From positions 1-60,655 of IMG/VR virus record IMGVR_UViG_3300020442_003253: a DNA stretch of 60,655 nt. One strand, given 5' to 3'. Position 1 is the stretch's first letter. Every line of letters starts with the position of its first letter. Position numbers and translations under genes: made by a program. Positions 1,922 through 13,548 of the stretch are shown piece after piece. This DNA comes from a virus. The notes under the pieces are model-generated. The model saw only the letters and a list, made by a program, of their open reading frames with translations. It did not search any database and was not told where the DNA came from.

Positions 1922-2438
1922 TCCACAACTGTATTTTACACCAGCTGATTGTGCAGAAATATTTGCAAACCCTTTGCAATTTACTAAAGGTTGTTGGAGT
2001 AAATTCAATACCTGCATTAGGAGTGATTTAATAACAGATTTTTATACAACTAAGCATTGGAGTATAATCAAAAACAAAATGCCAGGATCGCATCTACATC
2101 GGATGGATCACCTCCATGCAGGGTTCACCTTACACTGTTTACCTCCTGGAACTTATTATGGTTGGCACACGGATGAGATTTCAAAAAAAGGTGTAAGTGT
2201 TAGATCAAGAACAGTGGTTATAACAGTTAAAAAAGGAATCAGCAGTTTACTGGAAACTGAAAAAGGTATTTTTGATTTACCAGAGGGTTGGGGTATACAG
2301 ATACCAATTGGAGATCAATATCAGATATTAGGACCACAGATTACGAAAGATAATCACGATAACGATCACTGGGTGTTAATAGGCTGGGGAATGCAAAGAC
2401 TAAGCGATTATTATTGGAAAAAGAATTTTGATAACTAG
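1902..2438 (+). CDS. Conserved unknown, possible 2OG-Fe(II) oxygenase-like fold
   Basis: A 178-residue protein translationally overlapping the SGNH gene. Around residue 82 PPGTYYGWHTDE gives an HxD pair (His89, Asp91) in a context typical of 2-oxoglutarate/Fe(II) dioxygenases. The later pattern RTVVITVKKG, then PEGWGIQIPIGDQY, then HWVLIGWG resembles the remaining jelly-roll strands. The distal iron-binding His is not clear: the expected place holds Tyr140, and His152/His156 are off position. The assignment is tentative. If real, the substrate could be an amino acid, nucleotide or sugar, and nothing in the sequence decides. The end overlaps the convergent gene at 2435 by 4 nt. Confidence 0.4.
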   Translation: MSDLFYNPQLYFTPADCAEIFANPLQFTKGCWSKFNTCIRSDLITDFYTTKHWSIIKNKMPGSHLHRMDHLHAGFTLHCLPPGTYYGWHTDEISKKGVSVRSRTVVITVKKGISSLLETEKGIFDLPEGWGIQIPIGDQYQILGPQITKDNHDNDHWVLIGWGMQRLSDYYWKKNFDN

Positions 2439-2944
2439 TTAGGTCGGTTTTGTTTAGGAGGTAATAATCTTGTTGAGTCGATCTTATACAAGTCGAACAT
2501 TTCTCCGCCTTCGGATTTACTAGTTCCTAAACCACCTAGAGAATCACCTTCTTCACCAAATAAACTTTCCTCATCTTCTGTAGCTTGATTGAATGCACCT
2601 TCTACCCATGTGCCATTACGAGCCTGTTGCATCGCTGCTTCTAGCTGTGCATGCTGTTCTTCTGTGTAGGGTAATGAGTATGCACGGGGTTCTGTTTCAT
2701 TATCGTGCAGCACCCACATGAATATACGTGTATCAGAATTAATATAACCTAGCAGTGTAAATTTGTCTAGTGCATAACGTGTGGTAGGATAACCTAATAC
2801 GCTACCATAGAAAGTGTACAACCCAATTGCACAAGCTAAAGATACAGGTATTATATAATAGAGATGTACACTGCCTCTTGTGCTGATCATAGCATATATA
2901 ACTATCAATACAGCAACTATCGCGATAATTAAAAGGTATGTCAT
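2435..2944 (-). CDS. Small membrane protein of stator-like cassette
   Basis: A 169-residue protein with an N-terminal hydrophobic helix (MTYLLIIAIVAVLIVIYAMI) and a second one at about residues 31-50, then a soluble C-terminal part. That part includes an acidic, Gly/Ser-rich linker (about 120-150) and a basic proline-containing tail ending LPPKQNRPN. It does not match a family I know. Its start shares bases with the stop of the ExbD-like gene at 2944, and that gene in turn overlaps the channel gene, so the three are almost certainly co-translated and probably form one membrane complex. Predicted location is the inner membrane. Confidence 0.55.
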   Translation of the reverse strand: MTYLLIIAIVAVLIVIYAMISTRGSVHLYYIIPVSLACAIGLYTFYGSVLGYPTTRYALDKFTLLGYINSDTRIFMWVLHDNETEPRAYSLPYTEEQHAQLEAAMQQARNGTWVEGAFNQATEDEESLFGEEGDSLGGLGTSKSEGGEMFDLYKIDSTRLLPPKQNRPN

Positions 2945-3591
2945 TAAAATCCTCCTGAACCTTGTGTTGTTGTTGGGCCTGTAGGAGCTTGAACTAATCT
3001 CTTAGGCAGTCTGTTAATTTTCACAGCAGCACCGTCCTTGTTTAGTGTGAATCTCACAAATGTTTCTTCCTGCCCACGAGCTTGTAGTGTTTTACTGTCA
3101 GTAAAAATAACCTGGAATGGATTTAGCCTGATAACTTCAATGTTAACATCAGCCGGAATACCTGTACCGTAAGATTCGGAACCAATGCTTGGACTACTGT
3201 AATAATGAGCATTAACTACATAGTCGCCTGGTTGTAGTGCTCGCAGTGTTACAATTTCTCTATTAAGGAATATCTTTTCCATCTTTCCGTTTGGCATTAC
3301 GTAATAATCATTACGCACTCCAAGATCGTCTTTGTCTAGATGTACATGCCCGGCGACAGTGTTTATGTAGCTGACTTTGCCATTAGGAGTTTCTACCCAG
3401 AGGTCAATATCGCCTTCGTGATCATCCTGCCAGCTCATTACGATCATTATCTCTGCTTTGTATTCTATTTCAGATGTTTTGGCAGGATTGTTAATCAATA
3501 AGAAGCTGATTAGGAACAGCATCACAAAACCAAGTATTAAGTTGAACAGTAAATCTATAAAGGCAAGATTTGATACGTAACGTCTATCCAT
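2944..3591 (-). CDS. ExbD/TolR/MotB-like stator protein with YfaP-like domain
   Basis: A 215-residue protein. Residues 9-33 form one membrane helix beginning AFIDLLFNLILGFVMLF. The Asp at residue 13 is placed like the proton-carrying Asp of ExbD (PFIDVML) and MotB. The periplasmic part starts around residue 47 with IMIVMSWQDDHEGDIDLWVETPNGKVSY, a pattern resembling the YfaP/DUF2135 beta-sandwich rather than the ExbD or OmpA-like peptidoglycan-binding domain. The C-terminus is Pro/Thr/Gly-rich. The gene overlaps the MotA/ExbB-like gene upstream by 8 nt and abuts 2435-2944. I infer a proton-driven two-component stator in the host inner membrane; its mechanical partner is unknown. It has a good ribosome site context only by coupling. 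Confidence 0.7.
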   Translation of the reverse strand: MDRRYVSNLAFIDLLFNLILGFVMLFLISFLLINNPAKTSEIEYKAEIMIVMSWQDDHEGDIDLWVETPNGKVSYINTVAGHVHLDKDDLGVRNDYYVMPNGKMEKIFLNREIVTLRALQPGDYVVNAHYYSSPSIGSESYGTGIPADVNIEVIRLNPFQVIFTDSKTLQARGQEETFVRFTLNKDGAAVKINRLPKRLVQAPTGPTTTQGSGGF

Positions 3592-4057
3592 CTACGTGCT
3601 CATCCACTAACACAAGTTGTAACTTTAATAGCACACTCGCAATCAAGCCAACCAGTGTAGTCCATAGAGCAGTTCCCATTCCTGTAGCCATCATACCTAG
3701 TGCTTCCTGTACACTTGCGGTATCTTCTACATTAATACCTGTAAACACTGTAGTCAACATATAGATAAATCCTACCACAGTTCCTATCATTCCTAAGCTC
3801 AGCATGGTTTCACCAGCGAACCATTCTGGATTGGTGCTAAATGTGTATCTGTCTTTATCACGGTCAAATCGGTGTAATCTGTAGCCTAGTCTTAGAGAGA
3901 ATAAGAAATATAATCCTATTATTACCCAGCTAATCTTAGTAATGTCACTCTTGTACAAGCTGTCTAGGAATCCAAATGTCCAGCTGAGATACATTACCAA
4001 TACACTTACACAGAGTACCGTATACCATTTAAGTCGAGTTTGTATGTTTTCATTCAT
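3584..4057 (-). CDS. MotA/TolQ/ExbB-family proton channel protein
   Basis: A 157-residue membrane protein with about four hydrophobic helices. The diagnostic last two are LGMIGTVVGFIYMLTTVF and LGMMATGMGTALWTTLVGLIASVLLKL, the MotA_TolQ_ExbB signature with its channel-lining Thr residues. It is short for the family (ExbB about 240, MotA about 295) because the cytoplasmic part is reduced. Paired with the ExbD-like Asp13 protein next door it would form a proton-conducting stator. A late box GATAAATA lies 4 nt before its ATG, inside the end of the upstream polymerase gene, which suggests late expression. Confidence 0.8.
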   Translation of the reverse strand: MNENIQTRLKWYTVLCVSVLVMYLSWTFGFLDSLYKSDITKISWVIIGLYFLFSLRLGYRLHRFDRDKDRYTFSTNPEWFAGETMLSLGMIGTVVGFIYMLTTVFTGINVEDTASVQEALGMMATGMGTALWTTLVGLIASVLLKLQLVLVDEHVDG

Positions 4058-5700
4058 CAGTTATTTATCTCACCCCATTGTTTAAAAGTGTAACACTTGG
4101 TGTCTACGGTGTGTATATAATCCGATCTATCCTGTGTGCGGATGCGTCCTTGGCCATATACGATGTCATAATCTCTATATGCTACTGGTCTCTGTACTGT
4201 AACGTCTATGTATTCGCCATAACCTGTACCTAGTGTAAGGAATGTTACCCAGCGGCCATTAGTACCGCGGAATGCACGACCATTAGCTACAATGCCTGCA
4301 AACTCTACACGGTCAAGCCACTGCTGCCGTACACCCAACCCATCCGGAAATCCTCGATGCCACCAGCCCGGCTCTGCAGGTACTTTCACCCTGTGTGCTT
4401 CACAGTTGTACACCCAGCGCCTGTAACTGCCTTGGCAATGTTTTAGACATGCTGCCCAGAACTTACGTTTGTTATGTGCTTTCTGATATGCCAATGCCCA
4501 GATAAGTCTTCCTAAGTTAACAGCATGCGCCCTGCACAATCCAAAGCCACTTAGCTCTTGTAGTGCAGCAATAGCTTCCTGCTTGCGTGGGTGATCGCCT
4601 ATCCGCTGCATAAATTCAAGTATCCTTGAATCGTTCTTCTTTGCAAATGCACGGCGATACATGTCTGCTTCGTAGTTGTCTACATCTATTATATCACTGA
4701 TAATCTCAATAGCATCATCCTCAAACACTATTGAGTCCTGTACTGCTTCTCTGCTCCAGTCGTGGAACATAGCAGCCTTCTGCCTACCTGACAGTGCTAC
4801 TGGACGTATCAGTGCAGTAGCAAACACACAATCTTCTACGCTCTGTGGTTGTAGCGCACGGAATAGCCTACGCATCGCAGGGGACTCGCCTTGCGTAACA
4901 CCTAGTACATCTCCCCTGCACAACAGTTCACTTGTAGCAGGATCCGTGCGTGGATAGTCTGCAAGTGCTGTATCCGGATCTATCTCTAGCAGTTGCGACA
5001 ATCCACGATTAGCTAGGATATCTACCTTAAGGTGCTCTAGGTCTTCTACTTCGTATTTGTCCAGTAGTATTTGATTATCTGCTGATATAAGGCTTTTAGG
5101 TAACTGGCGTGTAAACATTACTACACCGCCACAGTGCTTGCTTATACAACGCTTCTTGCCCAAGAGCTTGCGTTCTATACGTTTAGCTTCTTTAGGATCC
5201 ACACCCGCAGATTCATACGTAAATCCACGCTTTAGTGCTCCTGTAGCGCCCAAACGCTTTGCTGCTTCTCTACGTGCGCTCTTTTCTTTATATGTAACGT
5301 AGTTGCTTAAACGTGCAGTTTTACCAGGCCATTTTTTAAATATCCTCTGCATAACTTCATTCTGCCTGTGATGTTCAAAGTCTATGTCAACATCAGGCAA
5401 GTCGTCACGCATTGGATTCATAAAACGTGCAACTGGTATACGCCACTGTACAGGATCAACATCTGTAATACCAAGTAGGTAACAGATGAGGCTAGAGCCT
5501 GCGCTGCCACGTGTCATGTGTGTGAGGTCGTCTGTGAGATCTATTATATCACATATTTGGAGGAAGTAATCTGTGAAGCGTTGATTGAGGATTAGTTCGA
5601 ATTCTTCTACTAGTCTTAGCTTATATTCTTCGCCTTGTGGTATGGGTCTTTTGAAGCGACCCATGAGCCTTTCTATATTATCTAAATCTGTATTTGCCAT
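4057..5700 (-). CDS. PHP-less DnaE-like (family C) DNA polymerase
   Basis: A 547-residue protein matching the bacterial Pol III alpha core but lacking the N-terminal PHP domain. Residues 64-82 (RGSAGSSLICYLLGITDVD) and PDVDIDF at 102-108 are the palm; Asp105 and Asp107 correspond to catalytic D401/D403 of E. coli DnaE, and Asp227 (HLKVDIL) to D555. About residues 255-300 (GVTQGESPAMRRLFRALQPQSVED...ALIRPVAL) match the finger region. FGLCRAHAVNLGRLIWALAYQKAH matches the conserved HhH-side helix, and the last ~80 residues look like an OB fold. All three catalytic Asp residues are kept, so activity is plausible. A repair, primer-extension or accessory role is inference: T4-like phages normally replicate with family B gp43, which is not in this window. 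A large inverted repeat covers its start. Confidence 0.8.
   Translation of the reverse strand: MANTDLDNIERLMGRFKRPIPQGEEYKLRLVEEFELILNQRFTDYFLQICDIIDLTDDLTHMTRGSAGSSLICYLLGITDVDPVQWRIPVARFMNPMRDDLPDVDIDFEHHRQNEVMQRIFKKWPGKTARLSNYVTYKEKSARREAAKRLGATGALKRGFTYESAGVDPKEAKRIERKLLGKKRCISKHCGGVVMFTRQLPKSLISADNQILLDKYEVEDLEHLKVDILANRGLSQLLEIDPDTALADYPRTDPATSELLCRGDVLGVTQGESPAMRRLFRALQPQSVEDCVFATALIRPVALSGRQKAAMFHDWSREAVQDSIVFEDDAIEIISDIIDVDNYEADMYRRAFAKKNDSRILEFMQRIGDHPRKQEAIAALQELSGFGLCRAHAVNLGRLIWALAYQKAHNKRKFWAACLKHCQGSYRRWVYNCEAHRVKVPAEPGWWHRGFPDGLGVRQQWLDRVEFAGIVANGRAFRGTNGRWVTFLTLGTGYGEYIDVTVQRPVAYRDYDIVYGQGRIRTQDRSDYIHTVDTKCYTFKQWGEINN
4062..4069 (-). promoter_or_regulatory. Late promoter box GATAAATA for the stator cassette
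   Basis: Minus-strand GATAAATA followed by ACTG and then the ATG at 4057. It overlaps the last codons of the DnaE-like gene, so it would uncouple the membrane cassette from that gene late in infection. Confidence 0.5.
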
Positions 5701-12984: not shown

Positions 12985-13548
12985 TTATTCATGTGATAGT
13001 TTTTTGCATAATAAATTCATGTGTATTACAACAGCAACTGCATAAGATATTGCATGCGCTTTTTTAAAATAATATTCTCCATTAGTAGGTTTAATCCAGA
13101 CTTTTTTTTCTATAACATCCCACTCTTCTTGCAATAAAAATCTTTTTGCAGGTCGAATTATTGCAAGCACAGCAGCGAGTTGTTCTATGTTTCTAGGTTT
13201 AAGTTTTGCACAAATTTCATAATGTCCTGCCAAATGAAACAATAAATCTACAAACTCTTTATGTTCTAAAAGCTCCCACAACGGTTCTTGTTCCATAAGT
13301 TGTAGTAGATGTTCTTCATTTTTTATTTCACTGTATATTGAGACATTTAGAAAATCTAATTTAAAATATCCACGATCTTCTGCAACTTTGTAATCAATTG
13401 TAGCTACATTTGTAAAAGGATTACAAGGTATTTCAGTTACATAAATGCCTGTATTATGCTTTTTATTATTAGGTAATGCAGCTATCCTATGATCTATGAT
13501 AGATAAAATTTTGTTTCTATCAGCAAAATCTATATCAATGTCAGGCAT
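12985..13548 (-). CDS. Mini DnaE-like palm protein, 187 aa
   Basis: The protein opens with MPDIDIDF, the exact catalytic palm motif of family C polymerases (Asp5 and Asp7 equal D401/D403 of E. coli DnaE). Asp65 in YFKLDFLNV corresponds to D555. LAGHYEICAKLKPRNIEQLAAVLAIIRPAKR (about 103-133) parallels the DnaE finger segment LESRGMKDLIKRLQP...ALFRPGPL, and FKKAHAISYAVAVVIHM parallels GFNKSHAAAYALVSYQ. The palm residues before PDxDxDF, PHP, most of the fingers and the OB fold are missing, and a stop lies 10 codons upstream in frame. With all three catalytic Asp residues but almost no scaffold, it may be a divergent minimal enzyme or a regulatory relic. It overlaps the deformylase stop by 8 nt. 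Confidence 0.7.
   Translation of the reverse strand: MPDIDIDFADRNKILSIIDHRIAALPNNKKHNTGIYVTEIPCNPFTNVATIDYKVAEDRGYFKLDFLNVSIYSEIKNEEHLLQLMEQEPLWELLEHKEFVDLLFHLAGHYEICAKLKPRNIEQLAAVLAIIRPAKRFLLQEEWDVIEKKVWIKPTNGEYYFKKAHAISYAVAVVIHMNLLCKKLSHE

Follow-up and report, generated by a model that had tools for sequence, protein, structure and literature searches.

Three overlapping genes of an uncultivated phage, here called A, B and C, probably encode a minimal proton-driven stator-like complex. The stretch analysed (the window) is the whole 60,655 nucleotides (nt) of the 60.7-kb record IMGVR_UViG_3300020442_003253, which derives from a virus that infects bacteria. Motors of the ion-driven 5:2 class drive flagella and nutrient uptake, and they also power envelope maintenance and Zorya defence. 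The trio is, as a system, none of MotAB, ExbBD, TolQR or Zorya. By its sequence A is a member of the MotA/TolQ/ExbB family, made atypical by the absence of the cytoplasmic domain; its neighbour B carries a conserved aspartate in a single modelled helix, and C is a third membrane protein. The three open reading frames (ORFs) lie on the minus strand where a first-pass annotation of the window had placed them, and overlap by 8 nt (A/B) and 1 nt (B/C).

3584..4057, minus strand: gene A, ORF of 157 aa, MotA/TolQ/ExbB family, four predicted transmembrane (TM) helices
2944..3591, minus strand: gene B, ORF of 215 aa, one N-terminal TM helix and a periplasmic beta-sandwich (AlphaFold2)
2435..2944, minus strand: gene C, ORF of 169 aa, two-helix hairpin, small beta domain, disordered linker and C-terminal motif

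A belongs to the MotA/TolQ/ExbB family

The first-pass annotation had recognised A as a MotA/TolQ/ExbB-type protein, and profile comparisons bore this out. A scored 26.7 bits against the Pfam model MotA_ExbB (PF01618), passing the cut-off of 22.9, and the same model was matched at E ≤ 1 by 13/13 diverged A homologues. Profiles built from 13 and 36 A sequences both retrieved solved motor proteins first, with E values down to 7e-7; the structures matched were MotA (8gqy, E 1.2e-6), ZorA (8qyh, E 1.1e-6), 8vvn, PomA, TolQ and ExbB. When aligned with E. coli ExbB by hhalign, two threonines of A fall on pore threonines of the third and fourth TM helices.

3779..3781, minus strand: A Thr93 codon, aligned with ExbB Thr148, the TM3 pore threonine
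3656..3658, minus strand: A Thr134 codon, aligned with ExbB Thr181, the TM4 pore threonine

Among 49 non-redundant phage A proteins, the first position is threonine in 40, while the second is threonine in 46 and serine in the other three. Both of these residues are important in ExbB.

The TM windows predicted for A span residues 14-30, 39-55, 85-101 and 135-151. In phage A proteins, whose median length is 156 aa, TM2 is joined to TM3 by no more than about 25-30 residues and there is almost no C-terminal tail; the span from D38 to G89, TM2 included, has a median of 47 residues. Judged by these TM windows and loop lengths, the sizeable cytoplasmic domain of the MotA/TolQ/ExbB family was not found in phage A. 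Chromosomal relatives of A, described below, have about 90 residues between TM2 and TM3.

B combines an invariant aspartate with a periplasmic domain modelled as TerD-like

The partner subunit of a 5:2 motor has a single TM helix bearing an aspartate, and B fits this description. The AlphaFold2 model of B (alignment of 44 sequences, predicted local distance difference test score 88) places a helix at residues 3-33 and then a beta-sandwich at residues 46-193, with no helix outside the membrane.

3553..3555, minus strand: B Asp13 codon, candidate ion-carrying carboxylate
3493..3585, minus strand: B TM helix, residues 3-33 (AlphaFold2 model)
3013..3456, minus strand: B periplasmic domain, residues 46-193, TerD-like sandwich (VIA-align of the model)

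Residue 13 was aspartate in 50/50 non-redundant phage B proteins covering the position, some of which are only ~24-30% identical. The first-pass annotation had proposed Asp13 as the TM aspartate of the partner and had staked its reading on conservation of that residue among homologues; the observed conservation favours it.

The modelled periplasmic domain most resembles TerD-like proteins, which headed the VIA-align comparison (3ibz, Z 10.6; 2qng, 9.7; 2qz7, 9.6). These alignments had root-mean-square deviations of 3.4-3.7 Å over 127-136 residues, with Z scores well above those of unrelated entries; calcium-bound and DUF4425 domains followed at Z ~6. Foldseek with the same model gave weak E values and no strong match. 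Eight residues of the domain are invariant (Trp54, Asp61, Asp63, Asp88, Asp89, Gly91, Glu112 and Asn127), and the acidic ones suggest a putative Ca2+ site.

The Pfam models TerD, DUF2135, OmpA and ExbD had no match in B or its homologues at E ≤ 1, and neither PHROGs nor Pfam gave a name for B or C. Against the PDB, a 13-sequence B profile found nothing at E ≤ 1 and a 44-sequence profile gave weak entries only, the best being a subtilisin-like protease (E 0.017). Four matches at E ≤ 1e-3 were obtained in a viral structure library, the best of them an uncharacterised Cellulophaga phage protein. The first-pass description of the domain as YfaP-like has indirect support only: DUF2135 itself was not matched, and the connection runs through one bacterial protein whose DUF2135-bearing end is matched by the B profile. 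The link to YfaP is therefore indirect and distant, and a TerD-like fold is the better-supported description. That the domain is neither OmpA-like nor ExbD-like, as was also claimed, agrees with the Pfam results, and the model speaks against both folds because it is all-beta outside the TM helix.

C is a third membrane protein and a candidate transducer

The third gene had been described as encoding a membrane protein with two helices, and the AlphaFold2 model of C agrees: helices at residues 2-21 and 26-50 are followed by a small beta domain and a disordered linker. A periplasmic location of the C-terminal domain is suggested by the positive residues that separate the two helices. In the window protein the C-terminal motif is FDLYKI; the C proteins of many marine phages have a Gly-rich or charged linker and then a terminal FY-[WFL] motif, and those of the group of Rhizobium phage 16-3 have a conserved tail of a different kind. 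Its position and build make C a candidate transducer of the TonB/TolA sort. A small lipoprotein gene lies directly 3' of C in four marine phages (loci L023, 6304-6537; L028; L034; L041), and its product is a possible outer-membrane partner.

The trio differs from each known motor system

Of the known systems, ExbBD-TonB and TolQRA share with the trio the two pore helices over which A aligns with ExbB, including the equivalents of Thr148 and Thr181, and the pairing of a single-helix, Asp-bearing partner with a third envelope protein. Unlike them, phage A has no large cytoplasmic domain, phage B has an all-beta sandwich in place of the alpha/beta domain of ExbD and TolR, and phage C is a two-helix hairpin resembling neither TonB nor TolA. 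MotAB and PomAB have the same four-helix topology as A, and the profile match to MotA (8gqy) extends the likeness, whereas their cytoplasmic torque-generating domain and the OmpA-like peptidoglycan-binding domain of the partner are absent from phage A and B, respectively.

ZorA 8qyh is among the solved structures closest to A by profile. The best NCBIfam match of the window protein is a ZorA subfamily (E 1.3e-5), and PADLOC ZorA models are matched as well; the score against NF033917 is 24.3 bits, where the cut-off is 500. However, phage A is far below the curated cut-offs and has no long ZorA cytoplasmic tail, and the trio is carried by phages, whereas ZorAB is carried by hosts as a defence island. 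Finally, the modelled B domain resembles a TerD-like protein (Z 10.6) and has the distant profile link to DUF2135 (YfaP), but unlike such proteins it is fused to a stator-type helix.

The trio is conserved across unrelated phages and in some bacterial chromosomes

The first-pass annotation had suggested looking for the same trio in other phage contigs, and we found it in the same A-B-C order in about 50 diverged phage loci. A B profile search of IMG/VR gave 63 loci on contigs of up to 360 kb; A was present at every one of them and C at nearly all, C being the conserved third gene in 48/51 loci. Three close relatives of the window virus, one of them on a 144-kb contig, have the same trio.

Named phages with B are few. 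When 50,697 records of named phages were searched with five diverse B sequences, at most 27 records matched, all from phages whose hosts are Rhizobium or Sinorhizobium. They fall into several unrelated groups: Pootjesviridae, the 16-3 group, the RHph_N3 group, RHph_I1_18 and RHph_TM3_3_14B. The Pootjesviridae among the carriers are T4-like, whereas others, Rhizobium phage 16-3 for one, are temperate siphoviruses. The B protein of phage AF3 bears the annotation 'Bll5685 protein'. In several Rhizobium phages (loci L009, L016 and L019), homing endonuclease genes (Seg-like, GIY-YIG or HNH) have been inserted between the genes of the trio or close to them.

Bacterial genomes scanned with a narrowed B alignment yielded at least 560 matches, of which 80 were kept for analysis. 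These were mostly from Bradyrhizobium, with some from Comamonas, and 79 of the 80 had A, and 79 had C, at the same locus. A 398-genome sample of the phylum to which the Comamonas genome belongs gave 17 B matches, including one 16-3-like prophage and one protein that was merely a DUF2135 protein. In a quick tree, the chromosomal operons formed one clade (Shimodaira-Hasegawa-like approximate likelihood-ratio test 99) within a wider phage diversity, and two further bacterial sequences were placed among the phages.

The chromosomal operons have the same three genes in the same order as the phage trio. They differ from it in A, which is ~226-300 aa long with the ~90-residue loop in both Bradyrhizobium and Comamonas, and the Bradyrhizobium operon differs further in having phosphoesterase and kinase genes downstream and in the replacement of the aligned aspartate, which Comamonas B keeps. 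In Bradyrhizobium locus L126 (7099-11452), for example, A-B-C is followed by a metallophosphoesterase gene and a Ser/Thr kinase-Usp fusion. Such an A-B-C and phosphoesterase/kinase operon is widespread in Bradyrhizobium and apparently undescribed.

Gene context in the window and the supposed late box

On our reading of the window annotations, the structural and replication genes are T4-type; the terminase is nearest to those of jumbo myoviruses such as PA5oct. The upstream neighbour of A is a replication gene, whose stop overlaps the A start by 1 nt.

4057..5700, minus strand: DNA polymerase III alpha-like gene, upstream neighbour of A
4062..4069 (about), minus strand: GATAAATA, proposed as a late box; it overlaps the final codons of the upstream gene and ends 4-5 nt short of the A start codon

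A second DNA polymerase III alpha-like piece lies separately at 12985-13548. One of the two pieces has NTPase and finger matches and the other a weak finger match, and their separation in a T4-type phage suggests a split or unusual replicase.

The trio had been thought to be led by a late box, a claim that the sequence does not support. GATAAATA, the only candidate, is too near the A start for a promoter element of this kind and lies inside the upstream gene; its occurrence at the same place in a relative is no independent evidence, because the site is within the upstream gene's codons. The motifs are also rarer in the window than expected by chance, with 5 copies of TATAAATA against 12 expected and 21 copies of ATAAATA against 41. 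As a separate observation, ATAAATA stands ~20-30 nt upstream of several structural genes (34030, 34539, 42635, 47302 and 59102, minus strand), as expected for T4-type late promoters.

Neighbouring genes point to the envelope

In three loci (L031, L033 and L039), the genes immediately upstream of A code for a lipoprotein, a GH108 endolysin and an Rz-like spanin. A lysozyme and an endopeptidase gene are found a few kb upstream of the trio in RHph_TM3_3_14B, as is a lysozyme gene in RHph_X2_25. Genes for trypsin-like (Trypsin_2) peptidases occur near the trio in 14/51 loci, and in 6/51, all from marine phages, a gene for an SbmA/BacA-like importer follows closely downstream. Phosphoesterase genes lie near some phage trios. 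Overall, the neighbourhood speaks for an envelope function, and for a role in lysis in some groups only.

The peptidase sites include L028 (6968-8104), L012 (8567-9259) and L010 (6247-7146), among others; the L028 protein starts in the manner of a lipoprotein and also has a match to PDZ. The importer genes (L035, 6607-7602; L023; L046; L048; L049; L062) are full-length and match PF05992 (E 1.5e-135). A full-length Hsp70/DnaK gene (PF00012, E 1.7e-275) lies just upstream of the trio in two virus contigs (L035, 2413-4305; L046), one of which is 328 kb long.

Discussion

We propose that A, B and C assemble into a complex in the inner membrane of their Gram-negative host during infection. By analogy with ExbB and ExbD, A would form a ring around the B helices, presumably with 5:2 stoichiometry. 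Protons would pass through B Asp13 and A Thr93 and Thr134, and the resulting movement would be passed on to the TerD/DUF2135-like periplasmic sandwich of B and to C. The transducer would be C, which has a membrane hairpin, a putatively periplasmic domain and a flexible tail with a short conserved motif at its end. Because A has no cytoplasmic loop, the action of the complex should be directed outwards only, at the cell wall or the outer membrane. Its most likely purpose would be remodelling or weakening of the envelope in the course of infection, perhaps near lysis. The idea of a phage-encoded force-generating complex, already put forward in the first-pass annotation, retains the family of A, Asp13, C and the B domain as its supports and loses the late-box control.

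Four observations weigh against this proposal. The B helix has no significant sequence relation to ExbD or MotB: hhalign of the profile against single sequences gave no signal of kinship with ExbD, and against MotB it aligned Asp13 with Asp32 weakly (probability 2%), over the Asp-bearing stretch only. The position of the charge is not universal, since the Bradyrhizobium operon has valine at the aligned site and an aspartate about four residues upstream. The beta domain of C has no fold match above background, the best being eIF5A-type barrels at Z 7.1. Lastly, the neighbours of the trio in the window, Pootjesviridae and the RHph_N3 group are DNA-metabolism genes and not lysis genes, so the link to lysis is not general. 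A role of the complex near lysis is offered as a tentative possibility. The fullest version of the proposal, in which a proton motor of phages of alphaproteobacterial and uncultivated marine hosts exerts force on the outer membrane or cell wall as an energised component of lysis beside holin, endolysin and spanin, and is the first viral 5:2 motor, seems unlikely.

A doubtful but serious alternative is that the stator-like complex is a superinfection-exclusion or envelope-conversion device, blocking injection by other phages and taking no part in lysis. Its presence in temperate phages (16-3 and a 16-3-like prophage), its position among middle-type DNA-metabolism genes in several lineages and its clustering with other envelope genes all agree with such a role. 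However, no exclusion gene marker was found, and the adjacency to lysis cassettes in two unrelated groups would be left unexplained.

It is less likely still, though conceivable from the Bradyrhizobium arrangement of A-B-C before a metallophosphoesterase and a Ser/Thr kinase-Usp protein, that the trio is a host-derived stress-sensing operon carried as cargo and working with phosphoesterases and kinases. The phosphoesterases near some phage trios fit this origin. Against it, the chromosomal operons are one clade within a much broader phage diversity, and no kinase was recognised among those neighbours of phage trios that were annotated.

Two further explanations are both improbable. The trio could energise import across the envelope in a Ton-like manner, working with the SbmA/BacA-like importer in some phages, and the resemblance of A to ExbB/TolQ and the six marine loci with that gene would suit this; but no TonB-like protein or TonB-dependent receptor was seen, and in most loci the surroundings of the trio contain no SbmA/BacA gene. 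Alternatively, A and B could form a channel with no mechanical output, a regulated leak that lowers the proton-motive force and thereby times lysis or blunts defence. Conservation of the pore module despite loss of the cytoplasmic loop is what such a leak would need, whereas C in its entirety and the B periplasmic domain would be superfluous, although both are conserved too.

That A is a truncated ZorA/MotA-like decoy, poisoning host motors such as Zorya, is suggested by its NCBIfam and PADLOC matches to ZorA but is highly improbable, as the invariant Asp13, the retained pore threonines and the co-conservation of B and C point to a working complex and the same trio exists as a chromosomal operon.

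The literature searched describes cellular 5:2 motors, but we found in it no report of a phage-encoded MotA/ExbB/TolQ-type one, an absence that is no proof of novelty. In the parts of two recent surveys of the motor class that were consulted (PMC12505986, PMC12204202), only cellular motors are listed and phages are named only as the target of Zorya. The paper on AP-16-3 does not name the trio genes.

Because the same trio recurs in many unrelated viruses, viruses may build a force-generating machine of their own. If the stator-like reading is true, conservation of the trio across many unrelated lineages of phages would place viruses among the carriers of 5:2 motors. The trio would also provide a pore module of very small size that does without a cytoplasmic domain, as well as a new kind of periplasmic effector domain. 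Sinorhizobium meliloti phage 16-3, in which the genes are p038, p040 and p042, offers a cultivable model in which the function of the trio can be tested directly.

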